Shown here: in pieces, positions 35,108 through 53,478 of the stretch | Position numbering within the stretch: position 1 is the stretch's first letter | Layout of the letters: each line of letters opens with the position of its first letter | Origin: Methanoplanus limicola DSM 2279 | Lineage (GTDB): Archaea > Halobacteriota > Methanomicrobia > Methanomicrobiales > Methanomicrobiaceae | Assembly: GCF_000243255.1 (NCBI RefSeq) | Contig: NZ_CM001436.1 | Span: 2,258,957-2,322,956 of the forward strand | Reading direction: 5' to 3' | Length of the DNA stretch: 64,000 nucleotides | Notes under the pieces: model-generated | Database searches by the model: none | Seen by the model: only the letters and a program-made list of their open reading frames with translations | Told to the model about the DNA's origin: nothing | Program-made: the position numbers and the translations under genes

Positions 35108-37159
35108 TCACTCCCCTAAAACTTTAAACAGAGCATCCCTTGGATCTTTATAATAAATCACCATAAGCCGGGAAGCAAGATCATCTGACATATCAATAAG
35201 CTGCTTCCTGCTGGCAACCGGAAGAAGTATTGCAACGGCTCCGTTCTCAGCAGCAAGTTCTGCCATATCAAGTGCATTGTAAACCGGCTCAATTGTACCG
35301 CCAACACTCATACCACCGACAATAACTATTCCACCCTTAAGGCTCTTTCCAATTGATGCCGAGCATAAAGCCAGAAGAATCGGCATACTTATCGAGCTTC
35401 CGCCCTTTGCTGAAGTCAGAGATCTCACCTGAATGGAGAATTCAGCCTCTTTAGGATTGTGATCGCCAATCAGAATTCTGTTCTGTGTATATAAGACCTG
35501 TTCAGCAGTCTTTACACTCTCTCTTAACCCTGACGGAGCCTTGACATTTATCAGCCGGATTGTTGAACCGGGTGTTGTGGTGACTTCAATTTTATAAAGA
35601 CCACTTCCCTCATTCTGATCTCCCGGCCCGATCCCCCATACCTGTCCTGGAGGAAGAGGATCTGAACTGATCTCATTTTCACTGTGTAATTCCGGGGTGG
35701 AAACATACTGCTCAATACCGTCAACACCAAGCCGGTAGCTAAACATAGTATTTCTGAATTCGGCAGAACCTATTCTCTTCTGCTGTTCCTTAACCCTTCT
35801 TCTGCACTCAAGTGCAGTTCTTACAGCCCATTCAATATCCTCTTCTTCAATGTCCATATCTGAAGAAGGATAGAGCAGTTTTAACAACCCGTCAATGGTT
35901 TTGTTGACTGCACGCCTGTCCCTGCCGCTTAGTGCATCACCAAAGAAGACCCTGCCATTAATTTTATGCAGCCTGCTCTCACCTCTGAGTCGGTTCCATG
36001 ATTCCGCAAGGAAATCACTGACAAAGCCGTAATGCTCAGTCAGAAGGTCAGGGTGGACTTTTGGATAGTCCCATCCGGGGATGTAACTGTGAATTCTGTC
36101 CATAAACGCAGTATCATCCCTGATCTCTTTTGGAAGCGGACCAAATAAATGCCCGATTCTCTGTTGATGCTCAACATCAACATCAAAGTTACCAAGCATT
36201 GCAATGCCGCCTTCTGCCCTTATATTCTCCTTGCCTCTGGAAAACTCCCCGCTCTCCATATAGCCTTTCATGATATTAACGCCGTCTTTCTGATCAAAGC
36301 TGATTCCTGAGACCTCATCAAAACAGACTATATCATACTGACAGACAAGCCCTCTCTGTCCGGATGAATTATTGACAAACATCTTTGCAACGGTTGCTTT
36401 TCCGCCGGAAACCAGATGGGAATAAGGACTTATCTGCTGGAATAAGTAACTTTTACCCGTTCCTCTCGGACCAAGTTCAATAAAATTATAATTCTTTTCA
36501 ACAAAGGGTATCATCCGGAGAAAAAGAACGGCTTTTGCACGCTCGGATAATACAGAAGGTTCAAGCCCGACACTCCGGCAGAGAAAATCCTTCCACTCTT
36601 CTGTTGTCATCTTTTCCCTGCCGGCAGCAAGGTCATCGAGTACATTTCTTTTTGAAAGCTGGATAGGCCGGAGATTTTTCACAGTAAAAGGATATGATCT
36701 CTGCCCTTCTGTCTGCGTAGCCCCGTATTCAACCTCAATTTCCGCATAAAAACCTCCGGTGAGCATCCTTTCATGCTCATAGACAAATTCAGACGGGATA
36801 AAGGCATCATTGATGAGAAGAGAGGGAATTGCGGCAAAGAAATTGTCTGATCTTGCATCAAGTCTTGCCGTGATTAAGTCAATAACCTTTACAGTCCCTT
36901 TGTCTTTGGCCCTTGCCTTAAACAGTTCCTGTTCTCCGGCTTTTACAACTTTATCCCTAAGCTGTTTATGAACTATCTCCAGACCTTCAGCAATCTCATC
37001 TTCATCTGTTGTCGCACAGAATTTTCCGATTAAGAACTCTGCTACGTAATTTGGAACCGGATATTTTTCTGCAAACTCTCTTGCAAGGTCTTTTCTGACT
37101 ACATAGCCCTCAAAAAGGTCTGTGGTCTTTTCATCAAGGGAGTCAAGTTCAAAAGACAT
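35108..37159 (-). CDS. brxL: BREX Lon-like AAA+ protein BrxL
   Basis: 683 residues, normal for BrxL of type 1 BREX systems. AAA+ core: Walker A 'GPRGTGKS' (230-237), Walker B 'DIVCFDEV' with acidic pair 281-282. The C-terminal domain (about 530-680) is Lon-protease-like: 'SAKGGSSIS' stands where Lon has its catalytic Ser segment. However 'GGTIEPVYNALDMAELAA' stands where Lon has 'GGLKEK', so I do not see the catalytic Lys, and proteolysis is doubtful. It is the last gene of the operon and starts 1 bp after the pglZ stop. In known systems BrxL is a ring-forming factor needed for phage restriction. Confidence 0.93.
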   Translation of the reverse strand: MSFELDSLDEKTTDLFEGYVVRKDLAREFAEKYPVPNYVAEFLIGKFCATTDEDEIAEGLEIVHKQLRDKVVKAGEQELFKARAKDKGTVKVIDLITARLDARSDNFFAAIPSLLINDAFIPSEFVYEHERMLTGGFYAEIEVEYGATQTEGQRSYPFTVKNLRPIQLSKRNVLDDLAAGREKMTTEEWKDFLCRSVGLEPSVLSERAKAVLFLRMIPFVEKNYNFIELGPRGTGKSYLFQQISPYSHLVSGGKATVAKMFVNNSSGQRGLVCQYDIVCFDEVSGISFDQKDGVNIMKGYMESGEFSRGKENIRAEGGIAMLGNFDVDVEHQQRIGHLFGPLPKEIRDDTAFMDRIHSYIPGWDYPKVHPDLLTEHYGFVSDFLAESWNRLRGESRLHKINGRVFFGDALSGRDRRAVNKTIDGLLKLLYPSSDMDIEEEDIEWAVRTALECRRRVKEQQKRIGSAEFRNTMFSYRLGVDGIEQYVSTPELHSENEISSDPLPPGQVWGIGPGDQNEGSGLYKIEVTTTPGSTIRLINVKAPSGLRESVKTAEQVLYTQNRILIGDHNPKEAEFSIQVRSLTSAKGGSSISMPILLALCSASIGKSLKGGIVIVGGMSVGGTIEPVYNALDMAELAAENGAVAILLPVASRKQLIDMSDDLASRLMVIYYKDPRDALFKVLGE

Positions 37160-37160
37160 A

Positions 37161-39518
37161 TTATTCTTCTCCTATTGTGATTTCCTTTTGATAGCATACA
37201 GTTTTATCTGAGTCTATGAGAACCAGAAATGCCTCAGAACCTTCAAGACTGTCATCTAAAACCAAAAGGGAGAGTTTTTCATCTGATATTTCCTTAACGG
37301 AATCAATAAGGGAGGAATTCTCATCTCCCGGCTGAGTCCTTATATCAGCAGACAGACCTTCACAGCCTTCGGTCTTTCCTTTTAGTCTCAGTCCTCTCCA
37401 TGTCATTTCTGTTATTTTTACTAATCCGGTTTTGGCTTTTTCCCTGCCCTTTACTGTCATCTGTGGGATTATTACTTCCTGTGGGCTTAGTCCGCCGTGT
37501 TCATATACCTTTCCGGAGTCAAAACAGGTAATTCCGGGTGAGAAAACCACGGTTGCATTTCTGTCCCAATGCCACTTTGAAGTCGGGAAGATGGTTTTCG
37601 CATCCGGGCGAAGTCTGGCACACCTGCTCTTTTTAACTTCTGTGAGGGCCGGGAGGAGTTCAGTCTTATCCATTTCTCCGGGCATGAAAACCCAGCCATG
37701 ATCTGTTACAATTTTTATCTCACTCCAGCCTGCATTTATCAGTTCCTGTACTCTTTTGCTTATTCTTTCAAGTTCTGCCGGAATTATCAGCGGGAGTTCA
37801 ATCTGTTTGTCATGCCCTTCATGGTCGATATTTCCGCAGTCCGTCCATGCTGAACCGTCAGGATCTCCTGTTCGATTATCATCAAGAACCTGAATACTAT
37901 GCTCTTCCATTATTCTTCTAAGGGCCGTGATGTTTGCTGCTGCCTCTGTTTTTGTAAACGGAGTGAATTCACTGCCTGCAATTAGTTCTCCGGCTATTGG
38001 CATTACTGCCGGTTTTGCAGTTGAGGTTAATGTCGGAAGTGCTGCATAGCTGAAATTAAGGTCTGTTTCAGGATGGTCCTTGCTGATTATTTCTTTAAGT
38101 TCATTTGCCAGGTCAAATCTAAGACCGTCAACGAAGAGGTAAACCGTTCCTTTTTCCGGTTTATAACCCGATTTGGAAATTTCCGGCGGGTTGTTGGTCC
38201 ATTCTTTCTGAAAACTTTCTGCAAGTGAAGAGAACCATGATTTTGATATTGCTGCAATTGCTGCTGATGTTATCCGGAGGCATTCTTTGTCCTTTCCTGC
38301 TTCCCTTATTGCCTTTAATATCGCATCATCGGCTGTGAAGTATTCCTCTGTGTATCTTTCTGCCTGCTCCTGTATTGTTCCGGAAAATCTGTTCTCCCGG
38401 ACTATTTCTGCGAGTTTTGCAAGGTATTTTAATGTGCATGCGTAAGGGCTTTCTCCAATTTTTGCCCAGACCCAGTCTCTTCTGATTTTATGGTTCTTCT
38501 CCAGGGTTAGGACTTTTTTGACTGCATCATTCCGGTTTAGTTCCTGCAAGTGAAGAAGCTCTTCTTTGACTTTTTTCTCCAGTTTATCATTATTCTGAGG
38601 CCATGAGTCCTGATATACAACCAGAGGCGGCATTTTTGAATTTCTAAGAAGGGTAGGAATGTTTACGTATTTGTCCGGATTTTCGCAGTATCTCTCCCAG
38701 ACATTTGACCAGTTGTTCTTAAGTGAGCCAAGTTTTTCTGCGGCTGTTACAGGAGTATCTTTTTCCGGGTCAAATTCATATTCGGATTTACAGATTGAGC
38801 AGAATGGCCGCCACTGTTCCGGCCCCATTCTCTCTTTTTCTTCTTTTGGAGAGTTCATCCAGAGGAGGAGCTGTTTTTTTGTGTCGGGGTGAATGAGGGA
38901 GTTAAAGTAAGAGGCGTTTAAGGGTGCTCTGTTTTTGATTAATGTTACATCTTCGTCACAGAGAGCACCGACTGCATTTATAGCGGCCTGTCTTGTCTCT
39001 TTATCCATTATTATGTCAATATCAAGGATATTTTTGATAAAGGCGGGTATTGTCCAGTCCCTGTTATTTTTCTGTGACCATACTATCCCTCTGTACTGAA
39101 GTTCAAAGAGCTGAAGCAGTTCTTCCGGGCAGTTTTCCGGGTTTCTTAAAACATCTTTTGAATATCCGGGAAGGTATATGACCGGAGTTCCTTCTTTTGG
39201 AAATTCCGGTACGCCTGATTCATCAGACACTCCGGAATCCGGGGAAACATCAGCAACCCCAAAACTGCCACCGTTCAGATTATGCGAAATTAAGCACCGG
39301 ATATAAATTGCAGGGCCTTTAAATTCCTCAGGATCATAACTGCCAAATGTTGCAATCGGCATCCCGTGATCTTTTACAAGTTTTTCAACAACCGGCTCCC
39401 ATTCCCGGTTATGATCTGTCCATATCAGTGCAACCGGAGCGGATAACCTCTCCCTGTCATAGTCAGACGCTGCACTCAAAATAGCCTTCTTCACTTCCTC
39501 AATAAATTTCCCCGGCAT
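37161..39518 (-). CDS. pglZ: BREX phosphatase-like protein PglZ
   Basis: 785 residues. The alkaline-phosphatase-superfamily core starts at about 457 with 'VYLFVDGLRFDLANE' (Asp464 and Asp469 as likely metal ligands), followed by 'LPTLTSTAKPAVMP', the usual nucleophile region, and 'VTDHGWVFMPGEM', a metal-binding Asp-His. The N-terminal ~450 residues are helical and typical of type 1 PglZ. It is cytoplasmic, and in BREX it is essential for both methylation and defence with PglX and BrxC. It is separated from brxL by 1 bp and from the membrane-protein gene upstream by 32 bp. Confidence 0.93.
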   Translation of the reverse strand: MPGKFIEEVKKAILSAASDYDRERLSAPVALIWTDHNREWEPVVEKLVKDHGMPIATFGSYDPEEFKGPAIYIRCLISHNLNGGSFGVADVSPDSGVSDESGVPEFPKEGTPVIYLPGYSKDVLRNPENCPEELLQLFELQYRGIVWSQKNNRDWTIPAFIKNILDIDIIMDKETRQAAINAVGALCDEDVTLIKNRAPLNASYFNSLIHPDTKKQLLLWMNSPKEEKERMGPEQWRPFCSICKSEYEFDPEKDTPVTAAEKLGSLKNNWSNVWERYCENPDKYVNIPTLLRNSKMPPLVVYQDSWPQNNDKLEKKVKEELLHLQELNRNDAVKKVLTLEKNHKIRRDWVWAKIGESPYACTLKYLAKLAEIVRENRFSGTIQEQAERYTEEYFTADDAILKAIREAGKDKECLRITSAAIAAISKSWFSSLAESFQKEWTNNPPEISKSGYKPEKGTVYLFVDGLRFDLANELKEIISKDHPETDLNFSYAALPTLTSTAKPAVMPIAGELIAGSEFTPFTKTEAAANITALRRIMEEHSIQVLDDNRTGDPDGSAWTDCGNIDHEGHDKQIELPLIIPAELERISKRVQELINAGWSEIKIVTDHGWVFMPGEMDKTELLPALTEVKKSRCARLRPDAKTIFPTSKWHWDRNATVVFSPGITCFDSGKVYEHGGLSPQEVIIPQMTVKGREKAKTGLVKITEMTWRGLRLKGKTEGCEGLSADIRTQPGDENSSLIDSVKEISDEKLSLLVLDDSLEGSEAFLVLIDSDKTVCYQKEITIGEE

Positions 39519-39550: not shown

Positions 39551-41284
39551 TTATTCAATGTAAATCCTTTTTTTTATATATTCAGCCTCTTCATCACTGC
39601 ACGAATATGGTCTTTCCAAAGTGTTTATCATATCAGTAATTATTAAGCCACAGCGATTTTCAAGTTCCTCTTCACCAGCATAAACCCCGGAACTATAGGC
39701 AAATCTGTTTTTTGAATCATTTTCAATTTCTTCAAGCCCGTCACATAAATAGTGTAATTTAGCAAGATAATCAACCACAATATCATTTAATTCAGAATTG
39801 TCTTTATCCATAAAATGCAGACCTAAATCAAATAATTCCCTTTTTATCAGAATAGTTATTTCAGGCAGGTTATATTTCCGATAAGCATCTCTTCCTATAT
39901 CTTTCAATATCTCCAAAATATTCTCTATCTCTTCTTTATTTAAATGACTAATTTTGGAATAAGATACTAATTCCCATATTGGCTCTAAGTAGTATTGTCC
40001 TTTTTGGCACTCAGGTGATTTCATATACCTATAAACAAGATCATTCCACTTATCAACCAGTAAATTTATAATTTCATTTGGAACTTCTTTACTATTGTCA
40101 ATAAAACTTTGGTTAATATTTTTAATTTCAGAAACTATTTCATCATAACTTTGACTGTTTCCAGATTTCATAAATTTGTAAGCCATTTTGTTAAGAGACA
40201 ATAGTTTACTCTTCATAATAAAAATATAATCATCATCATGTTTGTAGTAATATAAACCCAAACAGTGAGCAATTCTTCCTGAGATCAAATTAATACTATA
40301 GGAATAAATTGATTCAAATTCATGATCAATTGCATTATTTCCTAAAAATGCTATAATATTATGAATATTAATCTCAATACTTTCATCCAGATTTAACGTA
40401 TCCTCTTTAAATTTTAATATATTATTACAATCAATTCTCCTTACAATATTATTCATATTGATAATGATCTCAAAAATAAACTTTTCTTCCCGTTTTTCAA
40501 AGAGAATTAACGAAGTTCTTTTGACATTATCATAAAATCCAGAGCAGATAGAATTTGAGTCTAATTCCTGCTCTGAAGAATTAACTATCTCAATAAATTT
40601 CTCTCTGATTCTTTTAAGCCCATAACTAAAGGTTACCATATCACCTTTAATTGCAGAACTGTTAATTATCACAAAAAGATCATGGAATGGATCATCTTTA
40701 GGCTGCAAACTGATAAGTTTCTCAGAAGTCAGATCGTCAAATAGATTATCAATTACCTTCTCCGCATTCATACTATTAAGAGTAATTCTGATATGTGGAA
40801 TTAATGTAACGAGGAGAGCAATAAACAGGAAAAACGAATAAAAAACAGCATATGATTTAATTCCGTAAACTACCTCTGAATCTGAAATACTCATCAGAAT
40901 AAATGCAAATAGAGATATCCCGGAGATATATCCGGCAATTATCGCCCACATTGCATGGTTTTTCTTAAAAACCTCAATGACCCTTGAAGAATATTCCGAG
41001 GCAGTAAACTGAATTGCAACCAGTGTTAAGGATACAACAATAGCAATTACAGCAGCAAGACTCTGGATAAACGCACTTAAGAGGTACCTTGTTGTATCAT
41101 CATCCAGAGTTGTTGGAAATTTGAAAATTTTTAGCAGAAGATATAATCCGGCCGCTAAAACTAAAGGAACAAAAAAAACCAAAAAGTAAACATTTGTCCA
41201 GAACTCACCCGGATTTTCCGCCTCTTTTTCGTCAATATACTCCAATAACCTAAATCCGGACATAATATTTCCCAAAATCCCCAA
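39551..41284 (-). CDS. DUF2254-like membrane protein inside the BREX operon
   Basis: 577 residues. Four hydrophobic segments lie in the N-terminal third (about 25-48, 66-92, 112-134, 144-166), with 'VSLTLVAIQFTASEYSSRVIEVF' resembling DUF2254 membrane proteins. The remaining ~400 residues are hydrophilic, Asn/Ile/Lys-rich and helical, probably cytoplasmic. The gene is clearly more A+T-rich than pglX and pglZ on either side and is not part of the core BREX set. It is probably an accessory gene recruited into the operon, perhaps a membrane effector (inference). It lies 29 bp after the DUF1016 gene. Confidence 0.7.
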   Translation of the reverse strand: MGILGNIMSGFRLLEYIDEKEAENPGEFWTNVYFLVFFVPLVLAAGLYLLLKIFKFPTTLDDDTTRYLLSAFIQSLAAVIAIVVSLTLVAIQFTASEYSSRVIEVFKKNHAMWAIIAGYISGISLFAFILMSISDSEVVYGIKSYAVFYSFFLFIALLVTLIPHIRITLNSMNAEKVIDNLFDDLTSEKLISLQPKDDPFHDLFVIINSSAIKGDMVTFSYGLKRIREKFIEIVNSSEQELDSNSICSGFYDNVKRTSLILFEKREEKFIFEIIINMNNIVRRIDCNNILKFKEDTLNLDESIEINIHNIIAFLGNNAIDHEFESIYSYSINLISGRIAHCLGLYYYKHDDDYIFIMKSKLLSLNKMAYKFMKSGNSQSYDEIVSEIKNINQSFIDNSKEVPNEIINLLVDKWNDLVYRYMKSPECQKGQYYLEPIWELVSYSKISHLNKEEIENILEILKDIGRDAYRKYNLPEITILIKRELFDLGLHFMDKDNSELNDIVVDYLAKLHYLCDGLEEIENDSKNRFAYSSGVYAGEEELENRCGLIITDMINTLERPYSCSDEEAEYIKKRIYIE

Positions 41285-41313: not shown

Positions 41314-42345
41314 TCATTCATCATCTTCAATTATACCCTGCAACTCCTTAACAGTAGGAAGTAGTTTCTCCATCTCTTCCGGAGGTGTCTTTAGGTAATA
41401 TGTTGAAATTCCCATAGGTTTAGATAAATCCCGGAGTGCATACTCAGCAACAATATCATTTCTTTCCTTACAGAGCAGTAATCCGATTGTCGGGTTGTCA
41501 GCCGGAAGGTCTCTTAACAGGTCATCAACGGCTGAGAGATAGAAATTTAATTTCCCGGCATATTCCGGTTTAAAACTATCAATCTTCAGTTCTATTACCA
41601 CATAGCAGTGAAGTTTCGTATGGTAAAACAGAAGGTCAATAAAAAAATCCTCCCCACCAACTGACAACCTGTATTCATTGCCGACAAATGCAAAGCCTTT
41701 TCCAAGTTCGATAAGGAAATCCCTCAGTCTAAAGATTAATGATCTCTGAAGTTCCCTCTCCTTTACATCTTCAGATACTCCGAGGAACTCAAGGCAGAGG
41801 GGGTCTTTCATAATTGATACTGCAAGTTCAGACTGTTTTTCCGGTAGTGTACTCCTGAAATTATTTACACTTTTTTTCTGAGCATTGAGAGTTCTTGAGT
41901 ATAAATCACTCTCAATCTGATGTATAAGGACATTTCTTGACCAGCCGTTCTCAATCGTCTTTTTTATATAGAATTCCCGTTCATCTGTGGATTTAATTTT
42001 CTCAATTATCACTATGTTGTGACCCCAGGGAATTTCTGCCACAGGCTGTGGCAGATCAATAAACTTTATATATTCCCTTGCGAACTTCCTCATTCTCCAT
42101 AGATTTCTTGCAGAGAATCCTTTCATTTCCGGAAATTCTCTCAGCAGGTCTGATGAAATACAGTCAACAACAGATTTTCCCCAGCCTTCTGTCTCCTGTT
42201 TTAAGAGTATGTTCTTTCCAATCCGGAAGTACATATTGATTAATCCACGGTTAACAGAAGCAACTGCCTGTGTCCTTGATGTCCGGACAATGGACTTTAT
42301 TTCATAAATAAGCTCATTGTACTCTTTTGTATCTGCGATTTCCAT
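41314..42345 (-). CDS. DUF1016 / YhcG-type PD-(D/E)xK nuclease
   Basis: 343 residues from ATG at 42345, one base after the pglX stop. A longer frame reaches 42384 but would overlap pglX. The N-terminal domain (about 1-150) has 'RTQAVASVNRGLINMYFRIG', 'FSARNLWRMRKFAREY' and 'AEIPWGHNI', all typical of DUF1016. The C-terminal domain (about 170-330) is a PD-(D/E)xK nuclease: 'GEDFFIDLLFYHTKLHCYVVIELKI', with Asp and E-x-K at the expected places. It should bind and perhaps cut DNA. Such genes are often in restriction or BREX loci. A frameshifted paralogue is at 60604-61688. Confidence 0.88.
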   Translation of the reverse strand: MEIADTKEYNELIYEIKSIVRTSRTQAVASVNRGLINMYFRIGKNILLKQETEGWGKSVVDCISSDLLREFPEMKGFSARNLWRMRKFAREYIKFIDLPQPVAEIPWGHNIVIIEKIKSTDEREFYIKKTIENGWSRNVLIHQIESDLYSRTLNAQKKSVNNFRSTLPEKQSELAVSIMKDPLCLEFLGVSEDVKERELQRSLIFRLRDFLIELGKGFAFVGNEYRLSVGGEDFFIDLLFYHTKLHCYVVIELKIDSFKPEYAGKLNFYLSAVDDLLRDLPADNPTIGLLLCKERNDIVAEYALRDLSKPMGISTYYLKTPPEEMEKLLPTVKELQGIIEDDE

Positions 42346-42346
42346 C

Positions 42347-45300
42347 TCACTCTGCCTCTTTTCTCGCTTTCCTCTTCTCCTCAAGAGTAAAGTGCAGATC
42401 GTTATGCCTTTCTACCGTTCCGGAACAGTTAGGCACTGCATCTTTACCCCTGTCCTTGCCCCACTTAATCGCAGTAATTTTGGACCTCAAAACTTCAGCT
42501 TCGACAAAAGGCCGGATATTAAGCCTCACTCCGTCATTAATGTCCGGCTCCCAGCCGACAGCCTGCTCATGCAGAGGCTTCCACCGGACGTAAATATCAT
42601 AAGGAGCCTCACCTTCAAGAATAAGCTCAAGTCTTCTCTTAAGCTCTTTGGCTGCAACAAGCCTCTTTTCAGCACCGGCTTTATTGTCTGCCTTCTCCCT
42701 CTCCTGCTGTGAAATCCAGGGGCCAAGATATGAATATATAAGCCGCTCAAGATTCCGGCGATCAAGCTTATGATAATTGACAAGAACAGAAAAACCGTCC
42801 TTCTCCCCGTCCCAGATATGCCAGATAAACGGACGGTTATGGAATAACTTACAGTGTGATTTAAAGAACTCATCCCGGAGGAACTTCTCAAGGTCTCCTT
42901 TCAGACTGCCGTCCTTCTTTACATAACCAAGGTCAGCAAGCATCTTCTCTTCATGCCTCGCAGACCATTCACTGCCAAAAGCAGCCTTAAGCACTTCACG
43001 TACCCTCTCATCCATCCGCCCTTCACCACGGACAGAAGGAATACAGACAATCCCGTCATCATCTGCAAACGATAGAAGCTTCTCACTCTCTTTTATCCAG
43101 TCCCGTGCCTCAGAGGAGAGTTCCATCTCAGTATCGGTTTCAGCCGGCCATCTGTAACCAAGCAGCCGTGCAACTGCCACATGAAGCGGACTTTCTGACG
43201 GTTTTGGATGCCCGTGAAACAGCCACTGTGTAGGATCATCTGAATATGGTTCAGGAAGTCCATCCGGATACTTTTCAGCAGCCACCTTCTGCCAGTATTC
43301 AAGATCGAAGGGGACTTTGGCAAGTGTCTGATTGGTAACTTTTAAAGCCTGATCGATTTTCCGAACCTCATTATAATAATCTTCTGTCTGACAATATGTC
43401 CAAATAGGCAAAACAAGATCTTGATTAAATGGGCAAATTACTGCACTATTCGAATCGAAAGTTGTACCAATATATAGCGAAATTGGTAATTTATTCATTT
43501 GGCTTATTGTAATGCCAATCTTTCCCCATACTTTATTTCCCCTTTTGTCACTATCATGTAATTTTTCTCTTCGAATCCATGCTTCTTCCCTAAGATGACC
43601 TTCAGCAAAATTGAAATAAATTATCAAATTTAATCCACCAAATGTTACATTTTTATTTACTGTTGTTTGCTGAAAGCACCACAATTCATTTAATTGATAT
43701 ATTTCCCAAAAAAACTTCAAAAAATGGGGAGAATCACCATTAAACAATCCAGAATAGGATTCTGCATATTCAGAAAGTAATTTACCAGTTGTAGATTTTT
43801 CACACAATACAATTCTTGAATCAGGATTTTCCAACTGTTTTGCCTGTTCAATATGCATAATATTTTCTGAAATCAGAGAAGCTGCTTTATCAGAAGCACA
43901 AATTTTATTAGACACATCAAATCCAAACAATATCTGATCCTTAGGAGGAGAAATGTGTATCAGATTTATGAGAATTGCTTTCACAATTTCACCAGATATT
44001 GTTTCAAAAGCCCCTGAACCAAGCTTGCCGATCATCTCACAAATCTCATTTTTCAATAGATTTTCTCTGAATTTTCTGTACCTTGTTAAAAACAGCCAAT
44101 TCTGAGGAAGTACGATACTAACTCTTCCTCTCTTTTTTACTAATGATAAACACCTTTCTAAAAATACAGTAGATATGTCTATTTTGGAAAGGGGATAATT
44201 TAAATCACAGAAATTTCTTATTATTTCACTCTGTTTTCCTCTTGCAAGATAAGGAACATTCGTCACAACATAGTCGTATCTGGAGTTTAGGAGATGGGCA
44301 GCCTTCATGATGGCGTTGGCGGTTTCTCCGAAGGTTTCTGCAACGGGATCTCCGGCTGCTGTTTCTTTCTTTAAAGCCTGCTCAAGTTTTTCCATCAGGG
44401 TATCCTGATCGATAAGGCTCTGGGTAAAGGAGTTATCTGTTCCGGAACTGAACTTTTTGCCGGATTTGTCTGAAATGTTGTGCTTTCCTGATTTACCGGT
44501 TTTGCCGGATTTGTTATTTTGACTGGTGTCAAGCTGGATTAGACTGCCTAAAGAATCGGCGTTCTTAAATAACTCATAATAGTTCTCAAGGGCAGACTCA
44601 AGCATACCGTCACCGCCGGCAAGCTTAAGCCAGTCCTCCTTCTCAGCCTTAATCGGAATTCCGGTGCAGGCAAGATTTGGAACAGGCAGATAGGAATCAG
44701 TCGGGGAAAAACCCTCCTTCCATGCCTCAAGGGCAAGGGCAAAGGTTGCAATCTGGATACAGCGGGGGTCAAGCTCAAGCCCGTGAAGATTCTTTGAAAT
44801 TATCGCAGAAATAGCCGCCTCGTCCTCCTCGCCCTTCTCCCTCCTCATAGAAAGAAGCATATGAAAAGCCCGGACTAAAAAATGCCCCGAACCACAGCAT
44901 GGATCAAGGACCTTTAACTCATCAATATCACTTGGCCACCCGGAAAAGTCATGCTCAACCTCAGACCTGTAAAACTCCCACTCAGACTTAAGACCTGAAT
45001 CCGGATGCAAAGAAAGCCACCATGCACCAAGAGTATTCTCAAGCAGAAACTTAACCATATACGGCTCAGTAAAAAGCTGAGTCACAGCACAGATGTCATA
45101 ACCTTCGATCTTCCTCTCCGAATCATTGACCTCCTTTTTCTTCTCACTCTGCCAGAACTGATAAGTCCAGCCAAGTGCATCCTCAGCCATAAAACTCTCA
45201 GATGAAATACCGTCAAGCACACCCTGAAGTGAAATCCTGTCCTCAGGACTAAACTTAACCATCAGAAAAGGGTCATCCTGCCTGAAAATTCCGGGCAGCA

Positions 45301-45685
45301 TATGAGAAGCAAATTCCGCTGCAACCTCCCAGGCCTCACTTCCTTTCTCATCCGCAATCTCAGTTATATCAGAAAAAGAGACAGGAACCTTAAATTTCGG
45401 ATGAATCAGCAGATCATTTTCAAGCAGAAAACGGGCAAAAAGCATCCTGTGCCACTGCTCATAGGCAACCGAAGAGATAAGGACATCATAACTCCCAAGC
45501 CTCCTCATCTCAGAACGCAATCTCCTTCTAAGCTCTGCCTCAGCATCACTCAGATGAAAAGGCTTCTTATCCGCTTCAACGCCAAGATAATTCAGGGCAT
45601 TAACAGCACCGGCTTCAGCCTTCCTGTGGGCATCAAGAACAGACTTTTCAAGGCCCTTCCTCTCAGTATCAGTAAGAACAGTCAT
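42347..45685 (-). CDS. pglX: BREX adenine methyltransferase PglX
   Basis: 1112 residues. SAM-binding motif I is 'LDPCCGSGHFL' (from about residue 260), and the catalytic motif is 'NVPY' at 476-479 (a variant of NPPY), typical of N6-adenine methyltransferases of the PglX/BrxX family. A Ser/Gly/Lys linker ('SGKTGKSGKHNISDKSGKK', about 393-411) interrupts the domain between the two motifs. From roughly residue 475 to 770 (bases ~43380-44260) the DNA is much more A+T-rich than on both sides, which suggests exchange of a target-recognition segment. In BREX, PglX marks host DNA and is also required for phage exclusion. Confidence 0.93.
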   Translation of the reverse strand: MTVLTDTERKGLEKSVLDAHRKAEAGAVNALNYLGVEADKKPFHLSDAEAELRRRLRSEMRRLGSYDVLISSVAYEQWHRMLFARFLLENDLLIHPKFKVPVSFSDITEIADEKGSEAWEVAAEFASHMLPGIFRQDDPFLMVKFSPEDRISLQGVLDGISSESFMAEDALGWTYQFWQSEKKKEVNDSERKIEGYDICAVTQLFTEPYMVKFLLENTLGAWWLSLHPDSGLKSEWEFYRSEVEHDFSGWPSDIDELKVLDPCCGSGHFLVRAFHMLLSMRREKGEEDEAAISAIISKNLHGLELDPRCIQIATFALALEAWKEGFSPTDSYLPVPNLACTGIPIKAEKEDWLKLAGGDGMLESALENYYELFKNADSLGSLIQLDTSQNNKSGKTGKSGKHNISDKSGKKFSSGTDNSFTQSLIDQDTLMEKLEQALKKETAAGDPVAETFGETANAIMKAAHLLNSRYDYVVTNVPYLARGKQSEIIRNFCDLNYPLSKIDISTVFLERCLSLVKKRGRVSIVLPQNWLFLTRYRKFRENLLKNEICEMIGKLGSGAFETISGEIVKAILINLIHISPPKDQILFGFDVSNKICASDKAASLISENIMHIEQAKQLENPDSRIVLCEKSTTGKLLSEYAESYSGLFNGDSPHFLKFFWEIYQLNELWCFQQTTVNKNVTFGGLNLIIYFNFAEGHLREEAWIRREKLHDSDKRGNKVWGKIGITISQMNKLPISLYIGTTFDSNSAVICPFNQDLVLPIWTYCQTEDYYNEVRKIDQALKVTNQTLAKVPFDLEYWQKVAAEKYPDGLPEPYSDDPTQWLFHGHPKPSESPLHVAVARLLGYRWPAETDTEMELSSEARDWIKESEKLLSFADDDGIVCIPSVRGEGRMDERVREVLKAAFGSEWSARHEEKMLADLGYVKKDGSLKGDLEKFLRDEFFKSHCKLFHNRPFIWHIWDGEKDGFSVLVNYHKLDRRNLERLIYSYLGPWISQQEREKADNKAGAEKRLVAAKELKRRLELILEGEAPYDIYVRWKPLHEQAVGWEPDINDGVRLNIRPFVEAEVLRSKITAIKWGKDRGKDAVPNCSGTVERHNDLHFTLEEKRKARKEAE

Positions 45686-45756: not shown

Positions 45757-48700
45757 TCATCTCAGCATCACCGGATTTCCGTCATTCAAAGCCTTCTCTG
45801 CCTCTTCTTTAACAGAAAGAAGATAATCCTCAAGTTCCTCAGAAGATTTAATCGTAACCGGAGATTTAAGTGAAATAACAACCGTCTCCGGCTCAAGCAT
45901 TCTGGCAATCCTCTCCTTAATCTTGGGAAGATAAGACCTCGTAAGTTCAGCCCTGGACTTAAGGCTGTTTACCGGAATTTTTCTCAGCTGAGTAAATATC
46001 TCCTCATCACTCCCGACAGTGACAGTAAACTCATCATCAAGCCCGTATTCCTTTAACAGACTCTCTCTTTTATCATCTGCAAGTTCCCGGCAGTAACTGT
46101 CTGACTCAAGTGAGTCCGTTACTTCCTTCCTTGCTTTATTGACACTGCCAGCACCGGCAGTATAATAATCCCTGATACTGTTTCTCAGATCAGACAGCAG
46201 AGGTTCAACCGGATCAGGATCACTGAGCAGTGATCTCCCGGCAATAACACTCTTTGCTTCACCATCAAACAGGTCATAATCAGGCAGACCTTCAGAGTGA
46301 TCAAGAAGCCTTGAAAAAGTAGCCCACTCCTTACTCCTGGAATCTATCAGTTCAGCAGTCGCCTTCCATAACTTAATATCAGAAAGAATAATCTCTCTTC
46401 GTTCATTCAGCTCTTTAACAAGACTGTTCCCCGAATATCCGGCAAGTTCAGAGAGATAAGGAGGTTCTGCAGCATAAGGAAGAGGTGCATCCCCGCCTGT
46501 ACTTTTTGCAAGAGCATTCAGCTTTTCCAGAAACAGACCTGCCTCCTCAGTCTCTTTCCCGCTCTTCCCGGAGAGGCCAAGTTCAGCATACATCTTCCTT
46601 GCACCAAATTTCTCATTAGTGGAAAGGACCACATCCTCAACTTCAAAAGATGCATTGCCAATATTTCTGGCGTTTAAGTCCACCGCTCCTGCGGGTCTGT
46701 TATTTAACTTAACATTGACATATTCAGAAGCAACAAGCACAATCAGCCCGGCATTTATTGCATCTTTAGGCCATCCAAACGGAGGTTCACCCAGGGCCTT
46801 AAGAAGTTCACTGCCTTTCTTCTCACTATTCAGCCTCTTTAAAATCTCCCGGCAGACCGGGTGCTCCTTTGGATCTCTGCTAAAACCAATCTTTGAGAGC
46901 GGGGACTGTTCCCCCTTAGCTACCGCTCTTATTACTTTATCCCATCCGGCAGCGTCCCCATCGTCGAATTTTGGATACATCCGGACCATTGCCCGGTTTG
47001 AAGCATCCTTAATGCATTCAGAAACAGAATCACCGGGTACAACAGTTCCGCCGCCAAGAATAACCTTTGCATCCCTTAAAATATCATCAACAATTCTCTC
47101 AGCTCTTGCCTTATGCCTTTCACGTTTGGTCTCAATATTCTGTTTAGCCTGAATACCGTCCTGAGTGTTTGGCGTCCCTTTTCTGTCAATAACACGGTCT
47201 GCTGCAAGATAACCAGCAATCTCATTCTTCAGTTCATCATTAAACTCAAGCGGAATAAATACCGTAACAATAGAACTCTCATTCCCCTCAGCAGCACACT
47301 CATTAATAACATCCTTTTCCGGGATGTCCCATCCGTTCCGTACCCAGACGGGAATTTCCTTACCGGTTCTTGGCCTTTCGTCTCCAAAGTATGTAACACT
47401 GACATTACGGGGAGTCCGGCTTTCACCCTGAATAAGATTCACACTGCCTAAAATACCCGACATTCTGTTTTTGATGAACTTCACCCTTTCATCAATAATC
47501 CTTGTATCATCACCCTTAAATTTCGCTCTTCTTTTCTGATAATCTCCTTCCCAGACACCACCTTCTTCTGTCTGAATACGATACTCCGTATCTATATGTG
47601 CAAGCACTCCCCTTGTATGCATATCCTCAAGAAGTAAAGGCACAGACTGCCTGAGAGATTCACTACCGGAAACAAGATCGCTTACCATAAGATCGCAGAT
47701 AGTCTCAGGTTCAGCCTTAATCCCATACGAAGGGTCTATATGCTGTATCAGAAATATCGTGGCACAGATACGTGAGCGGAGTTCACCTTTTTCTGTTCCG
47801 TCATTTTCTCTGCTGATGAGGTCATCGACATTCTGAGTAAGAATATAATTCTGCCTCAGATACCGCTTATTCTGAGTATAAATGTAATCCGCAGGAATAA
47901 AATGTCCAATATCACAGCCGGCATAGTCCTTTAGTCCGTCAAAGACAAGCCTGAGCTGATTCCTGAGCTGATTACCCATCCCGTCCGGATCAACGGATGC
48001 CAAAACCCTCTCCCAGAAACGCTTCCTTGTCGGAAGAAGAGGATAATCAGAGAGAATGAACCTGTCATCCTCCTGTCTGTGTGCCAGCTTTGAGTTGGAG
48101 ATGTGCCTTGAAATCTCACCGTTAACCCTGTCCAGAACTGATCTCAGTTCCGGTTTCATGGATTCTTTCTTTAGTAATACAGTCTCTCTAAGGACAGTAT
48201 CCACATCCTTTGACTCTAAAATAACCTTTTCAGAAAACCTGCCCTGAAGTCTCTGAAGCTGGGTATTTGCCTGAAGGGCCTCCTGTCCTGTCGCAATAAA
48301 CAGGACTTTCCCGCTAAACCTTCTGCAGCACTCTTCAACAGCTTCCTGAAAATCAAGCAGTTTATCCGAACCATCACCAATAGTCAGATACTGCTGGACC
48401 TCATCAAGGATAATCAGCACAAGAGGCAGTTTATCCTTATTCTCAGACTGCATCAGGAAGATCTGATTAAGCATGGAAACCATCTCTGTATTGGAAATCC
48501 CTGAACTTGTCCTGAATTCCCGTCTTAAATCGTTTTTAACATCCTTTGGATCTTCATCTCCGGAATAATCCGGATGAAACTTAATAACAGCCTCAATAAA
48601 CTTTGGAGAAACAAAAGGATGGAGCAGGTCCTTTTCCTTATCTATTGAGATCAGATATTCACGGACATCATCAAGAATCCCGCATTCTTCAAGCCACAGA

Positions 48701-49230
48701 TGAACTCTTGCAACTTCAATATTCTCAGGAAGCCCTGCTGAACGAAGAACGAGCTGAAGAAGATCTGTTCTTGGCCCGTCTCCGCCTCCGGCACTCATTG
48801 TACCTGCCGCAGACCATATTCCTCCACTCCTTTTGGTCTCGGTTGATAACTCTTTTAACAGCACCTTCACATCATCAGGGAGGTTACAGAGGTCTCTTCC
48901 TTTAGTCCCGTCCGAAAATTCGATATTTCTCCATAAAAAGTCCAGAATCCTGACAAGATGTGATTTACCGCAGCCAAAAAAGCCGCTTACCCAGACCGCA
49001 GGCTGACTTGCCTTATCCAGATGGTCAAGGTATGACTGGAGAATTCTTCTAAGCCCTTCATGATATGAACCCTTACAGACAAAATTTTCAAGTTCATATC
49101 TGGCTACAATCCAGTCGTTTTTATCACTTTTGCTTAATGGTGCTACCTTTGCGACACCATCATTAGGTATTGTATATGTTGTTGGATCTTTGAAAAATAC
49201 TTCACTATTTTTTATTGTTACCATGATCAA
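45757..49230 (-). CDS. brxC: BREX P-loop ATPase BrxC
   Basis: 1157 residues, the usual size. Walker A 'GFFGCGKSHL' (about 83-92, preceded by 'AVWVS'), Walker B 'PLVLIILDEVQQYL' (about 270-285) and 'GKVLFIATGQEALQ' as sensor segment. The rest is a long helical region with no further motif that I recognise. It is cytoplasmic and is thought to power or scaffold the BREX complex. The start overlaps the end of brxB by 4 bp, showing tight coupling, and 71 bp separate it from pglX. Confidence 0.94.
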   Translation of the reverse strand: MIMVTIKNSEVFFKDPTTYTIPNDGVAKVAPLSKSDKNDWIVARYELENFVCKGSYHEGLRRILQSYLDHLDKASQPAVWVSGFFGCGKSHLVRILDFLWRNIEFSDGTKGRDLCNLPDDVKVLLKELSTETKRSGGIWSAAGTMSAGGGDGPRTDLLQLVLRSAGLPENIEVARVHLWLEECGILDDVREYLISIDKEKDLLHPFVSPKFIEAVIKFHPDYSGDEDPKDVKNDLRREFRTSSGISNTEMVSMLNQIFLMQSENKDKLPLVLIILDEVQQYLTIGDGSDKLLDFQEAVEECCRRFSGKVLFIATGQEALQANTQLQRLQGRFSEKVILESKDVDTVLRETVLLKKESMKPELRSVLDRVNGEISRHISNSKLAHRQEDDRFILSDYPLLPTRKRFWERVLASVDPDGMGNQLRNQLRLVFDGLKDYAGCDIGHFIPADYIYTQNKRYLRQNYILTQNVDDLISRENDGTEKGELRSRICATIFLIQHIDPSYGIKAEPETICDLMVSDLVSGSESLRQSVPLLLEDMHTRGVLAHIDTEYRIQTEEGGVWEGDYQKRRAKFKGDDTRIIDERVKFIKNRMSGILGSVNLIQGESRTPRNVSVTYFGDERPRTGKEIPVWVRNGWDIPEKDVINECAAEGNESSIVTVFIPLEFNDELKNEIAGYLAADRVIDRKGTPNTQDGIQAKQNIETKRERHKARAERIVDDILRDAKVILGGGTVVPGDSVSECIKDASNRAMVRMYPKFDDGDAAGWDKVIRAVAKGEQSPLSKIGFSRDPKEHPVCREILKRLNSEKKGSELLKALGEPPFGWPKDAINAGLIVLVASEYVNVKLNNRPAGAVDLNARNIGNASFEVEDVVLSTNEKFGARKMYAELGLSGKSGKETEEAGLFLEKLNALAKSTGGDAPLPYAAEPPYLSELAGYSGNSLVKELNERREIILSDIKLWKATAELIDSRSKEWATFSRLLDHSEGLPDYDLFDGEAKSVIAGRSLLSDPDPVEPLLSDLRNSIRDYYTAGAGSVNKARKEVTDSLESDSYCRELADDKRESLLKEYGLDDEFTVTVGSDEEIFTQLRKIPVNSLKSRAELTRSYLPKIKERIARMLEPETVVISLKSPVTIKSSEELEDYLLSVKEEAEKALNDGNPVMLR

Positions 49231-49775
49231 TCCTCCTCCGCTTCAATCGGATATGCAAGATAATTCCACCCATCCCTGGCTTTTAGTAATCTGTAGTTAT
49301 TCTTATCCCGTTCTCCTGGGAAAAAGACCAAAAGCCTTCCTGAGATTTTAATTTTATCAATAATAAGCTCAACAATCTGACTTGCCCTTAATATTCCAAA
49401 CATTGATGCAATGCCAAGAACAGCAATCACTGTGTCCTCATCTGAATCAGTAGTTTTTTCCCTGATCTTTCCAACCAGAAATTCCTTTAATTCAGTTAAA
49501 TCATCCAGCAGATATTCCGGTTCGGAAAAATACTCTTCCCGATATTCATTTGCAGACAACCATTCCTCAAAAAACGGGCTTAAATCTATTTCAGTCCATT
49601 TATGCCCGGACTGTATAGTATAAATCTCAAACTCCTTTATGCCTGCACGGATTTTTCTCTCGGAATTTGGATCATAAATACAGAACCAGACTTTTTCCGG
49701 TCCGGAAATATTCCTTTGCCATTCAAGTTCTACGTGATCTTTGTACTTTTTTGACAGATTCTGTAGTTTAGTCAT
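49227..49775 (-). CDS. brxB: BREX protein BrxB (DUF1788)
   Basis: 182 residues, normal for BrxB. The C-terminal signature 'GRLLVFFPGERDKNNYRLL' followed by 'ARDGWNYLAYPI' is characteristic of DUF1788. It overlaps brxA by 4 bp and brxC by 4 bp. Its biochemical role is unsettled, but it is a core component of type 1 BREX. No membrane or catalytic motif visible. Confidence 0.92.
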   Translation of the reverse strand: MTKLQNLSKKYKDHVELEWQRNISGPEKVWFCIYDPNSERKIRAGIKEFEIYTIQSGHKWTEIDLSPFFEEWLSANEYREEYFSEPEYLLDDLTELKEFLVGKIREKTTDSDEDTVIAVLGIASMFGILRASQIVELIIDKIKISGRLLVFFPGERDKNNYRLLKARDGWNYLAYPIEAEED

Positions 49776-50593
49776 TGAGTACCCCCAATCAAATCTTCCG
49801 GAAATGTTATCTCAACTACACTTCCGGCTTTTTTTACTGACATCAAACCTTTTCTGTTTGACTCTTTGATAAATTCTTTAATCTCTAAGTTACTCAGGCA
49901 TAATACCAAAACCCAGGGAGAATGAAATATTCTCTTTCCCCTAAATCCGGAAAGATATGCCAGATAGCAGGCATATGCAAACGAATATACAGATATTTCA
50001 GGTATAATCCTTATTTTATTGGACCTGCCTTCAAGATACCCTGCCTGAGTCCATGATGACATCAGGTTCCTGACCATCGACTCACGGACTTTTTCACTGT
50101 AAATGTTCTGATAATAATTATCAACTATTTCTTTTAAACCGGATTTATCAGCAGAATCTCCGGCTTTAACTGACAGTATATACCCGGATGATAATCTTAA
50201 TGCTTCATCACGGGATAATGCACAAAGGAGTGCCATTATTTTATTATCAGGTGATTTCTCCTTCCAGTACTTCAAAAGTCCCTGAAAATTTTTATTTTCA
50301 GAGTCCAGACCATAAAGGTGCTTTAAATAATAGAAAGATATTTTCCTCCCGGAAATACTCTCTTTTTTAAGTAAGTTGTCTTCAACAAATATTTTTTTAA
50401 GAATTTCTTTATCATTAAAGCCGGGTGCGTTATCCATTACAGTTATGAATTCAGAAAGCATGACTGTACGCCCCGTATGAGAACTTTTTGAATAAAATCC
50501 AAAGTTTTCGGGATAATCCTGTTTAACAAAAAAATCAGACTGTTCCACTATTGATCTGTTATCTTTATAACAAATAATATTTATGAATTTCAT
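49772..50593 (-). CDS. brxA: BREX protein BrxA (DUF1819)
   Basis: 273 residues, longer than typical BrxA (about 200) because of an N-terminal extension of ~40 residues ahead of 'GRTVMLSEF'. The DUF1819 fold follows ('VEDNLLKKESISGRKISFYY', 'LKHLYGLDS', 'SGYILSVKAGD'). Known BrxA proteins are small helical DNA-binding proteins. It is more A+T-rich than the peptidase-like gene 54 bp upstream, but overlaps brxB by 4 bp. A later start would give the normal length, but no better start is evident. Confidence 0.88.
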   Translation of the reverse strand: MKFINIICYKDNRSIVEQSDFFVKQDYPENFGFYSKSSHTGRTVMLSEFITVMDNAPGFNDKEILKKIFVEDNLLKKESISGRKISFYYLKHLYGLDSENKNFQGLLKYWKEKSPDNKIMALLCALSRDEALRLSSGYILSVKAGDSADKSGLKEIVDNYYQNIYSEKVRESMVRNLMSSWTQAGYLEGRSNKIRIIPEISVYSFAYACYLAYLSGFRGKRIFHSPWVLVLCLSNLEIKEFIKESNRKGLMSVKKAGSVVEITFPEDLIGGTQ

Positions 50594-50647: not shown

Positions 50648-53128
50648 TCATAAACTTAGGGATTTACTCTCATCTTTCAAAAAACCAACAACAACCCTCA
50701 TCACGCCAAAAACGTCATTTAAGTCAAGCCACTCACTCTCCCGGTGCTCATTGTAATATCCGGCAGAGACATTTAACACATCAAGGTTAGGGAAAGCCGC
50801 ACGGATATTATAAGCATCGGCAATACTTCCCTTTGCAACCGCCATCGGGTGATAAACCTTCTTTGAAACGTCAATGAATTTTTCAAGAAACTCATCACTG
50901 CATAACTTCAGCCTGGGCGAACTTTCGGAGCCAAAACCATAAGAAGCAATAATATCCCTGCCACCCTGCCGGTCAATTGTCAGGACACAGGCAGAATTCT
51001 TAAAAAATTCCGGGTTCTTCAAAATGGCATAATCAATACCGCCACCGCCCCCACGCCCGTACTTCGCCGGATAAGTTACTGCCTGCTCCTCCTGCACAGT
51101 GAACACAGCCTTAAATTTCAGGGAAGTGTACTTCATCAGGTAAAGCACCATCGCAACCCCGGCCTTATCGTCAAATCCGGCATTAAAACCAGGGATGATC
51201 TTGTTCAAACCGGACAAACCGGAGACCACAGCAGAACCGGAAGACCCGGAGAACTCAGAAGAAATCCGGTAACCTGAAAGTTTTTCAATAAAACCGGCCT
51301 CATCTTCATGGCCCTTATAATAATGCGGGAAAGTGTCAAGATGCACATTTAATAAAGGCAGGTCCTCCGGGCAGCCATAACTCTCACAGCCCTCATCAAT
51401 ATCACAGCCGCGATAACCCTCAACCTCATTCCGGCCATAATTTTTACAGTTAACATCACCACTGCCACCCTTACAAAAAGCCTCTATCTCCCCAAAGGCA
51501 ACCGCCGGCACTATCTCAAAGGAATCATTGCCATAACGGTCCACATGACCGCCGTAATCTGCGTAGACCTCATCACTATCATCACTCCCGCAGTCCGCAT
51601 AGGCCTGATAACCCTTAGAAGTTTTAAAACCATCCGGACCTGCTGAACTCTTAAAGCACTCAGACCTCCCGGATTTAAAACCCTCCAGACCAACAGATCT
51701 CTTTAAAGATTTATCACCCTCACCATAACCTTTCGGCCTGATGTACAGATTGCACAGTTCATCGGATGAGACCACCCATCTCCCCCTCCCGTACTTCCGG
51801 ACGATAAACTCAGCAAGCTCCTGCTCCCGTCCGGACGGACTGTAAATCCTCACCAGGTCCTCAAGAATCCTGTTGTACCGCCTGAAAAAGACCTTAGGAT
51901 TTTCAATGCAGTCGCTCTTTTCACTACAGACACCACGGCCAGTCCTTCCGGCAGCAGGCCGGCTCAAAAGAGATTTTCCAACAGCAGAACGGTCCGGCTC
52001 CGGGCCACCTCTTATAAGACTTCCTGCCCTCTTACGGAGCCGGTCAATATTCTCCTCCGGAATATCACACGGCTTATCTAAATTATCCAGTTCAATGGAG
52101 AAGAAAGCAAGTCTCTTATGGTCCTCACAGACCTTTCCCTTGACCTGCCTTAAAAGGACCCTGTGCTCATACAGAAATGCCGCAATCCTCTGGATTTCCA
52201 TATAATCCGGAACAGGACTCCGTCCGGAGAAATAAACATTAACATCCCCGGAAAGGTGGCCACGCTTCCCGTAATCAAATCTTATCTTTGGATGTAGCAG
52301 CGGCTGTATAACACACTCATTTAAAATCCTAAACCACTGAAGGTCCTGACGGCTATAAAAATTAATCCAGGCAGCGTCCTTCTGACCAAAATGACCGTCA
52401 CAGGCCATCTCAGTCGTAATCCCACATGCCGAGACAGCCTTACACAGACGTGCAATGGCGCAGTCCATTACACAGACCGGCACTTTTATCCCGTGCTCAT
52501 GCCCAAAGAAATGCTCCTCTTTCGCCTTTTGGCTGTGACTGAAATACTGAATAGTCGATCCCTCAAGGCCCTGAAAAATATTCACTGCCGCTGTTAAGTG
52601 CCTGAACTTTGGGTCATGCACAATATTCAGCCGGTATTTTGCACGGTCATTTGGCCCCGGACAAAAATTCCGGCTATAACGGCCACGAGCCGGATTTACC
52701 ACACCACCAGGTCTCCGGTCATCAATAACATCAAGAGTGCCAAGACCGTTACCCTCAAGGAAACCTGAAAGGACCACCTGGTCAAGGTCATCATTAGAGC
52801 AGTGTGCACCGGGATTTCTCAGGCAGGAGTTGTCACTCAGGTAATACTCACCGTCCAATTCATCAATTAAAAATCCCCTGGCACGAAGGACTTCGACCAA
52901 CTCTTCCTCTGGAGTCCGGCAGTCCTTTATGACCTCCCGTACAAACTCATCAACAAATTCTTCCCTTCTCTCCCGGTGCCTGTGAAGATTTTTCCGTTCA
53001 GAATAATCTCTTTCAGGTACTTCCGGTCTCCGGGAAGACCCCGGCATTCCTCTTTCAGGGAAAGATTTTCTTCCCATATCGCTGTTTAAACCCTCTCTGC
53101 CAAAATTCCGGTTTGTAATTTCTGACAT
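50648..53128 (-). CDS. Novel fusion: unknown domain plus M20/M28/M42-like peptidase, BREX-linked
   Basis: 826 residues. Residues 1-75 are charged and low complexity (many Arg/Glu). Residues ~75-380 form a domain I do not recognise, with 'VCVMDCAIARLCKAVSACG' and 'EMACDGHFGQKDAAWINF'. Residues ~400-826 resemble di-zinc aminopeptidases: 'LVRIYSPSGREQELAEF', 'NVHLDT', 'GFDDKAGVAM', 'FTVQEEQA', 'TIDRQGG' and 'NEHRESEWLDL' match the order of metal ligands and catalytic Glu. A Gly/Ser/Tyr/Asp-rich insert of about 115 residues splits the fold between 'CNLYIRPKG' and 'LLNVHLDT'. It is first in the minus-strand run, 54 bp ahead of brxA. Probably a BREX accessory or regulator acting on a peptide (inference). 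Confidence 0.72.
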   Translation of the reverse strand: MSEITNRNFGREGLNSDMGRKSFPERGMPGSSRRPEVPERDYSERKNLHRHRERREEFVDEFVREVIKDCRTPEEELVEVLRARGFLIDELDGEYYLSDNSCLRNPGAHCSNDDLDQVVLSGFLEGNGLGTLDVIDDRRPGGVVNPARGRYSRNFCPGPNDRAKYRLNIVHDPKFRHLTAAVNIFQGLEGSTIQYFSHSQKAKEEHFFGHEHGIKVPVCVMDCAIARLCKAVSACGITTEMACDGHFGQKDAAWINFYSRQDLQWFRILNECVIQPLLHPKIRFDYGKRGHLSGDVNVYFSGRSPVPDYMEIQRIAAFLYEHRVLLRQVKGKVCEDHKRLAFFSIELDNLDKPCDIPEENIDRLRKRAGSLIRGGPEPDRSAVGKSLLSRPAAGRTGRGVCSEKSDCIENPKVFFRRYNRILEDLVRIYSPSGREQELAEFIVRKYGRGRWVVSSDELCNLYIRPKGYGEGDKSLKRSVGLEGFKSGRSECFKSSAGPDGFKTSKGYQAYADCGSDDSDEVYADYGGHVDRYGNDSFEIVPAVAFGEIEAFCKGGSGDVNCKNYGRNEVEGYRGCDIDEGCESYGCPEDLPLLNVHLDTFPHYYKGHEDEAGFIEKLSGYRISSEFSGSSGSAVVSGLSGLNKIIPGFNAGFDDKAGVAMVLYLMKYTSLKFKAVFTVQEEQAVTYPAKYGRGGGGGIDYAILKNPEFFKNSACVLTIDRQGGRDIIASYGFGSESSPRLKLCSDEFLEKFIDVSKKVYHPMAVAKGSIADAYNIRAAFPNLDVLNVSAGYYNEHRESEWLDLNDVFGVMRVVVGFLKDESKSLSL

Positions 53129-53478
53129 ATTTGATCTTCTCCCTGTAGTTTCTATACTACTTCATAGGAGGCGATCATATATAAATTATGTGCCTAATAC
53201 AACAAATATAGCTAATGTTTAAAATATAGTTTAAGTGTATAATATAGCCAATGTGACAAATATAGTTAATGTGTCAAACCTATTTAGAATTTTATATTTT
53301 GAATTCCACTATTAATATTATAAAATTCATCAACCATATTAGAGTCAGATGATTATTTTACCAATAATTTCAATTGTATTTCAAAATATATAAATAATAC
53401 TCCAAAAAATGTTCAAATGCTGACTTATGTTTATTAGCAAGATTAATATCCAATCGAAAGAATACATACAGTACAACT
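53129..53478. promoter_or_regulatory. Divergent control region between BREX operon and 53479 gene
   Basis: 350 bp, very A+T-rich. It contains four 18-bp-period direct repeats (listed separately) about 75-145 bp before the start of the 826-residue gene, and A+T-rich runs such as 'tttcaaaatatataaata' near 53380-53397 that could be the TATA box for the plus-strand gene. No coding frame. It very likely controls both transcription units. Confidence 0.6.
53204..53273. repeat. Four direct repeats, exact 18-bp period: candidate operator
   Basis: The core 'atatag' occurs at 53206, 53224, 53242 and 53260, each 18 bases apart. Each is followed by a variant of 'ttaatgtg' (for example 'aaatatagttaatgtg'), the second copy being the most divergent ('atatagtttaagtg'). 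Such regular spacing (about two helical turns) is typical of operators bound cooperatively by dimeric repressors. The ribbon-helix-helix protein encoded next (53479) is the obvious candidate. Confidence 0.85.

Follow-up and report, generated by a model that had tools for sequence, protein, structure and literature searches.

Why does a gene for a predicted metallopeptidase stand at the head of a BREX operon in Methanoplanus limicola, and does its product belong to the defence system? We analysed a 64,000-nucleotide stretch of the genome of strain DSM 2279 (contig NZ_CM001436.1), referred to here as the window, in which this gene encodes a two-domain protein of 826 aa.

The BREX cluster and its first gene

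The BREX cluster of M. limicola is a complete type-1 system with the order brxA-brxB-brxC-pglX-yhcG nuclease-577-aa protein-pglZ type B-brxL, and the 826-aa gene is the first in the same-strand run (Table 1). The cluster shares brxA, brxB, brxC, pglX, pglZ, and brxL with BREX type 1 systems containing a type B PglZ, but differs from them in the additional peptidase gene, the YhcG nuclease, and the 577-aa protein. An open reading frame of the same size as that of the 577-aa protein is present in the sister species from the same genus.

The reading frame of the 826-aa protein is intact, with an ATG start and without an internal stop. The match of its neighbor to the PADLOC BrxA model confirms the position ahead of brxA given in a preliminary description of this DNA. 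The two genes are on the same strand and separated by a 54 bp gap in both species, and the motif GGAGG precedes brxA. The orthologue from the sister species is 87% identical and heads the same BREX cluster, in which the sizes of the downstream reading frames agree, apart from one extra gene of 536 aa, as judged by size. The common strand, short gap, and conserved synteny place the peptidase gene within the predicted BREX operon.

A second copy in the sister species is a paralogue of 713 aa with 56% identity to the 826-aa protein. The existence of the orthologue and paralogue, together with dN/dS values between the two BREX-linked copies of 0.13 for the peptidase core and 0.31 for the N-terminal domain, argues that the 826-aa frame is not a chance reading frame. 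The linker has a dN/dS of 0.86. Judged from these ratios, both domains are under purifying selection. Residues 413–620 (51269-51892, minus strand), which include an insert, have dS values of 0–0.06 between the two species, compared with 0.16–0.45 elsewhere, and the small number of silent changes suggests recent recombination in this segment.

Table 1 Features of the BREX locus and of the 826-aa protein in the window
Feature	Position	Strand	Remarks
brxL	35108..37159	(-)	
pglZ (BREX-1 type B)	37161..39518	(-)	Scores over curated cut-off
577-aa protein within BREX cluster	39551..41284	(-)	Hydrophobic N-terminus by eye; without PADLOC match
YhcG/DUF1016 PD-(D/E)XK nuclease, within BREX cluster	41314..42384	(-)	
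pglX adenine methyltransferase	42347..45685	(-)	
brxC	45757..49230	(-)	PADLOC
brxB	49227..49775	(-)	
brxA	49772..50593	(-)	PADLOC BrxA model, E 2e-68; 54 bp downstream of peptidase gene
Two-domain protein, 826 aa	50648..53128	(-)	CxGH/TYW3-like N-domain and compact M42/M28-like metallopeptidase
Metallopeptidase half, residues 413-826	50651..51892	(-)	Ligands H596, D598, D653, E680/E681, D719, H795
Insert, residues 467-582	51383..51730	(-)	116 aa, Gly/Asp/Glu/Ser/Tyr-rich; modelled as disordered
N-terminal domain, residues 55-345	52094..52966	(-)	Kept in 3/3 full-length copies (alignment); dN/dS 0.31
CxGH core, residues ~217-312	52193..52480	(-)	GITTEMACDGHF ... AWINFY ...; TYW3-like via transitive profile comparison
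Four degenerate 18-bp direct repeats	53200..53271	(-)	Near CATTAGCTATATTTGT; CATTAACTATATTTGT-like; divergent promoter region
Divergent partner, 216 aa	53479..54129	(+)	N-terminal ribbon-helix-helix-like stretch by eye; without Pfam support

A compact metallopeptidase half

The C-terminal half of the 826-aa protein is a compact metallopeptidase of the MH clan (M42/M28-like) with an intact set of metal ligands. Residues 651–814 match the phrog_4191 profile ‘peptidase’ with an E-value of 7.5e-20. The motifs HLDT (596), GFDDKAG (651), QEEQ (679), DRQGG (719), and EHRESEW (794) were all found within the intact frame in the order reported in the preliminary description, and supply the ligand set HxD, D, EE, D, H in the sequence characteristic of the clan. 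The earlier proposal of a di-zinc peptidase half with complete ligands is borne out by the invariance of the ligands in six sequences from the same genus and two other Methanomicrobiales.

The AlphaFold model of the peptidase half has moderate confidence, with a mean pLDDT of 59 and a disordered insert. A Foldseek search of the PDB with this model identified M42 aminopeptidases (E-value 1.3e-7, probability 1.0). The M42 aminopeptidases (TET; MJ0555, TmPep1050) provide the nearest solved fold and have the same ligand order. However, alignment to M42 structures, including 9qr6, shows that, in the peptidase half, the stretch from the first to the second ligand segment lacks about 70 residues that form part of the extra M42 subdomain. 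Therefore, we classify it as a compact M42/M28-like enzyme and not as a strict M42 member; its score against Pfam M42 is 14 bits, below the gathering cut-off of 23.2 bits. The phage and plasmid M20/M42-like peptidases of phrog_4191, such as those of Brevibacillus phage Jenst and Bacillus phage vB_BcoS-136, are likewise compact metallopeptidases with the same ordered ligands. They differ from the M. limicola protein in being stand-alone proteins of 320–370 aa, which lack the CxGH N-domain and the insert, and are encoded outside BREX loci.

The insert of ~115 residues, previously noted to split the peptidase half, is real and precedes the first metal ligand, at residues ~467–582. Only the BREX-linked copies have it; the sister-species paralogue and all other relatives do not. 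Since the paralogue does without it, the insert is not required for the fold; it is a natural but dispensable element. A match of the insert to G134 (loci L010 and L018) was discarded as low-complexity. The location of the insert just before the first ligand and its pLDDT of about 25 could also point to an inactive relic, a decaying gene whose product lost its fold through the large insertion. Such decay is highly improbable, as the model retains the M42-like fold around the insert, all ligands and the peptidase core are conserved, and the frame is intact in both species. Based on the ligand conservation and the model, the predicted metal-dependent peptidase half is probably active.

The CxGH core of the N-terminal half

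The N-terminal half contains the motifs DCAIAR (222) and CDGH (243). Searches of Pfam, NCBIfam, PADLOC, and PDB sequences did not identify a confident family for it, in agreement with the preliminary description, which did not recognize this domain. Its core, however, is a CxGH domain that can be linked to orphan proteins of F plasmids and, transitively, to TYW3. Structure prediction, proposed earlier as a check of both halves, produced the M42-like peptidase fold described above, but a poor model of the N-domain (mean pLDDT 51). A Foldseek search of the PDB with the N-domain model gave no match, and a search of viral models gave weak matches only, one of which carries an SCEGH motif. From its length and position, we infer that this match is gp7 of phage 201phi2-1. 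A tblastn search with the N-domain gave a weak match on a Providencia plasmid (E-value 4) with the same CxGH motif.

Since the motif recurred in the weak plasmid and phage matches, the plasmid family was tested by profile comparison. Hhalign aligned the N-domain core with the F-plasmid family over 92 columns with a probability of 89.6 and an E-value of 1.9e-6, which is inflated, because the plasmid protein was selected as a weak match before being tested. The best probability in 300 column shuffles was 4.7. In a reverse search with a plasmid-only HMM, the N-domain proteins rank first among 1261 reading frames. The founder of the F-plasmid family matches 933 plasmid records, mostly conjugative, and the family members are orphan genes among tra genes. 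Distantly TYW3-like SCxGH orphans occur among trbC, traW, and traF on F-type and Vibrio plasmids (L110, L111, L112, L113, L114).

The F-plasmid family matches an archaeal SCGGH family with a probability of 96.6. All ten archaeal SCGGH proteins tested match Pfam TYW3, with a best E-value of 2.9e-7 and mostly under the curated cut-off, and their profile finds TYW3 structures (2qg3, E-value 1e-4). The direct comparison of the N-domain with the archaeal SCGGH family is weak (probability 3.7), and the TYW3 link is therefore only transitive. The Pfam search with the N-domain gave no direct match to TYW3 (PF02676), and when 40 relatives were searched for TYW3 directly, only a sub-threshold match resulted. 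The profile phrog_6638, which weakly matches the motif region, had no match on peptidase-carrying phages and plasmids, and the control was equally silent. From these profile comparisons, we regard the core of the N-terminal half as a CxGH domain that is TYW3-like by transitive evidence only. It shares a helix, a T-x-CxGH/R strand and turn, and a further strand with TYW3/Taw3 and the F-plasmid and archaeal SCxGH orphans, but sits inside a longer domain and is fused to a peptidase. An orphan domain common to archaea, a jumbo phage, and many F-type plasmids would thereby receive its first family assignment.

TYW3/Taw3 is a SAM-dependent wyosine tRNA methyltransferase acting on a substrate that bears an amino-acid side chain. 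It could be imagined that the TYW3-like domain recognizes an amino-acid-decorated nucleobase or nucleotide and that the peptidase strips off its aminoacyl group; hypermodified viral DNA, for example, would in this way become accessible to BREX or restriction-type systems. We regard this as a very long shot; if true, the protein would be a defence hydrolase of a new, nucleic-acid-linked kind.

Relatives, neighboring genes, and proposed role

Full-length fusions were detected in no other genus: two species carry one each at the head of BREX, and a third copy is the non-BREX paralogue. Scans of genome and viral contigs yielded no further full-length relative. Genes similar to brxA are present in 18 of 231 genomes of the class, and the fusion in two of these 18, both congeners. 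In twelve other brxA-bearing genomes inspected, the roughly 1.5 kb upstream of brxA contain no peptidase gene. Since the two BREX-linked species are congeneric, the co-occurrence with BREX represents one evolutionary event. The preliminary description had named homologues located mostly away from BREX as evidence against a BREX connection, and this is largely the distribution observed: of the three full-length copies, one is not in BREX, and the fusion is missing from 16 of the 18 brxA-bearing genomes. On this count, we reject the protein as a BREX core component; it is an accessory and, strictly speaking, no BREX component.

A 2026 survey of BREX covers auxiliary effectors that are nucleases, as well as a Lon domain in BrxL that is proteolytically inactive; in its main text, peptidases come up solely in connection with vWA-MoxR systems (PMC12839542). 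Within the scope of that text, the earlier statement that a peptidase is not a known BREX component holds. The protein might still be a true BREX effector, a protease attacking phage or host proteins within the BREX complex, as its place as the first gene of the operon and the synteny kept in both species would allow. The paralogue outside BREX, the many brxA-bearing genomes without the fusion, and the absence of such a peptidase from the survey's main text, which covers auxiliary nucleases (PMC12839542), make this very unlikely. In the vWA-MoxR-peptidase conflict systems, a peptidase is likewise a proposed regulated part of defence (PMC12839542), but no MoxR or vWA gene was seen beside the M. 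limicola peptidase, and both the peptidase and the partner genes are different. Relative to the survey's main text, a CxGH-peptidase fusion heading BREX appears to be a new combination and a variant of an already known kind of system. With it, the accessories of BREX operons, according to the survey mainly nucleases (PMC12839542), come to include a metallopeptidase.

Outside the genus, relatives of the peptidase half were never found in BREX. They occur as stand-alone proteins encoded in hsdM/hsdS loci or next to CHAT-caspase genes, as well as on plasmids and on phages of Bacillus and Brevibacillus. A Methanofollis MAG has the gene order hsdS-hsdM-peptidase-hsdS-hsdM, and a second peptidase gene separated by about 20 bp from a gene for a CHAT-type caspase, and a Methanomicrobiales MAG has an overlapping run of genes for a peptidase, a 241-aa protein, and a CHAT protein. 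Adjacent or overlapping peptidase and CHAT-type caspase genes were observed in two Methanomicrobiales outside this genus (L016 496-2020 and L017 439-2551). It is possible that the two genes form a two-protease module. A CHAT gene belonging to this family also adjoins a relative of the ribbon-helix-helix (RHH)-like gene at 53479-54129 in M. limicola itself, about 39 kb outside the window; near the peptidase gene of the window, no CHAT gene was found. This CHAT/RHH-like pair (L098 8665-9282 and 9430-10380) is next to a gene for a 788-aa HEAT-repeat-like protein. The few cases, from two other genera and the RHH-like/CHAT pair elsewhere in the same genome, suggest a peptidase theme of M42-like peptidases and CHAT caspases around methylation-type defence loci in methanogens. 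Units of hsdS-like and hsdM-like genes are located near CHAT genes in related genomes (L102 and L016).

The paralogue of the sister species adjoins a gene for a HerA/DndH/mad8-like ATPase, and a protein with similarity to type I specificity subunits is encoded about 4 kb away. An RHH-like partner is divergent to the peptidase gene at both sister-species loci, although its comparison with Pfam gave no RHH family match. The 18-bp repeats in the divergent promoter region of the window are possible operators, and are absent from the same region in the sister species. By analogy to ImmA/IrrE with ImmR, the peptidase might remove or inactivate the RHH-like protein upon infection and thereby de-repress BREX. 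The divergent pair kept at two loci and the promoter repeats are consistent with such a switch. We nevertheless find it doubtful, given that the repeats are not conserved, the RHH-like pattern was recognized by eye, and clan MH enzymes are mainly exopeptidases and amidohydrolases, which rarely cut folded proteins.

A somewhat unlikely alternative, although less so than the switch, is that the gene pair is cargo, a mobile-element module that landed in a defence island and serves some other purpose, for instance the salvage of peptides or amides. Peptidase relatives are carried by phages of Bacillus and Brevibacillus and by plasmids, CxGH relatives by F plasmids and by phage 201phi2-1, the GC content is 46–54% in the 826-aa gene compared with 34% in brxA, and the fusion is rare among brxA-bearing genomes, all of which would be expected of cargo. 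The same-strand arrangement with the 54 bp gap in both species, the presence of the pair at a second defence-type locus, and the location of peptidase relatives from other genera inside hsdM/hsdS loci and next to CHAT caspase genes would not be.

The same peptidase and RHH-like gene pair thus occurs at two unlike loci, with BREX and with the HerA/DndH-like ATPase gene. We favor, with a probability of roughly 0.4, the reading that the fusion is a portable accessory which serves defence-type loci and is specific to this lineage; here it heads a type-1 BREX operon and would tune defence as follows. The peptidase gene would be co-transcribed with brxA-brxB-brxC, and the RHH-like partner would control the shared divergent promoter and hence the operon. 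The N-domain may bind a small nucleotide-derived or peptide ligand, which would position or switch on the peptidase. The peptidase would then cleave a single residue or acyl-amide group off its target, which could be a protein of the defence or of the invader, or a small molecule. This trimming or deacylation would tune the defence, while restriction itself would not be carried out by the peptidase. We favor ligand-directed trimming or deacylation over bulk proteolysis because of the predominance of exopeptidases and amidohydrolases in clan MH.

A gene pair for a PIN-domain toxin and a VapB-type antitoxin adjoins the RHH-like gene (54260-55074, minus strand).
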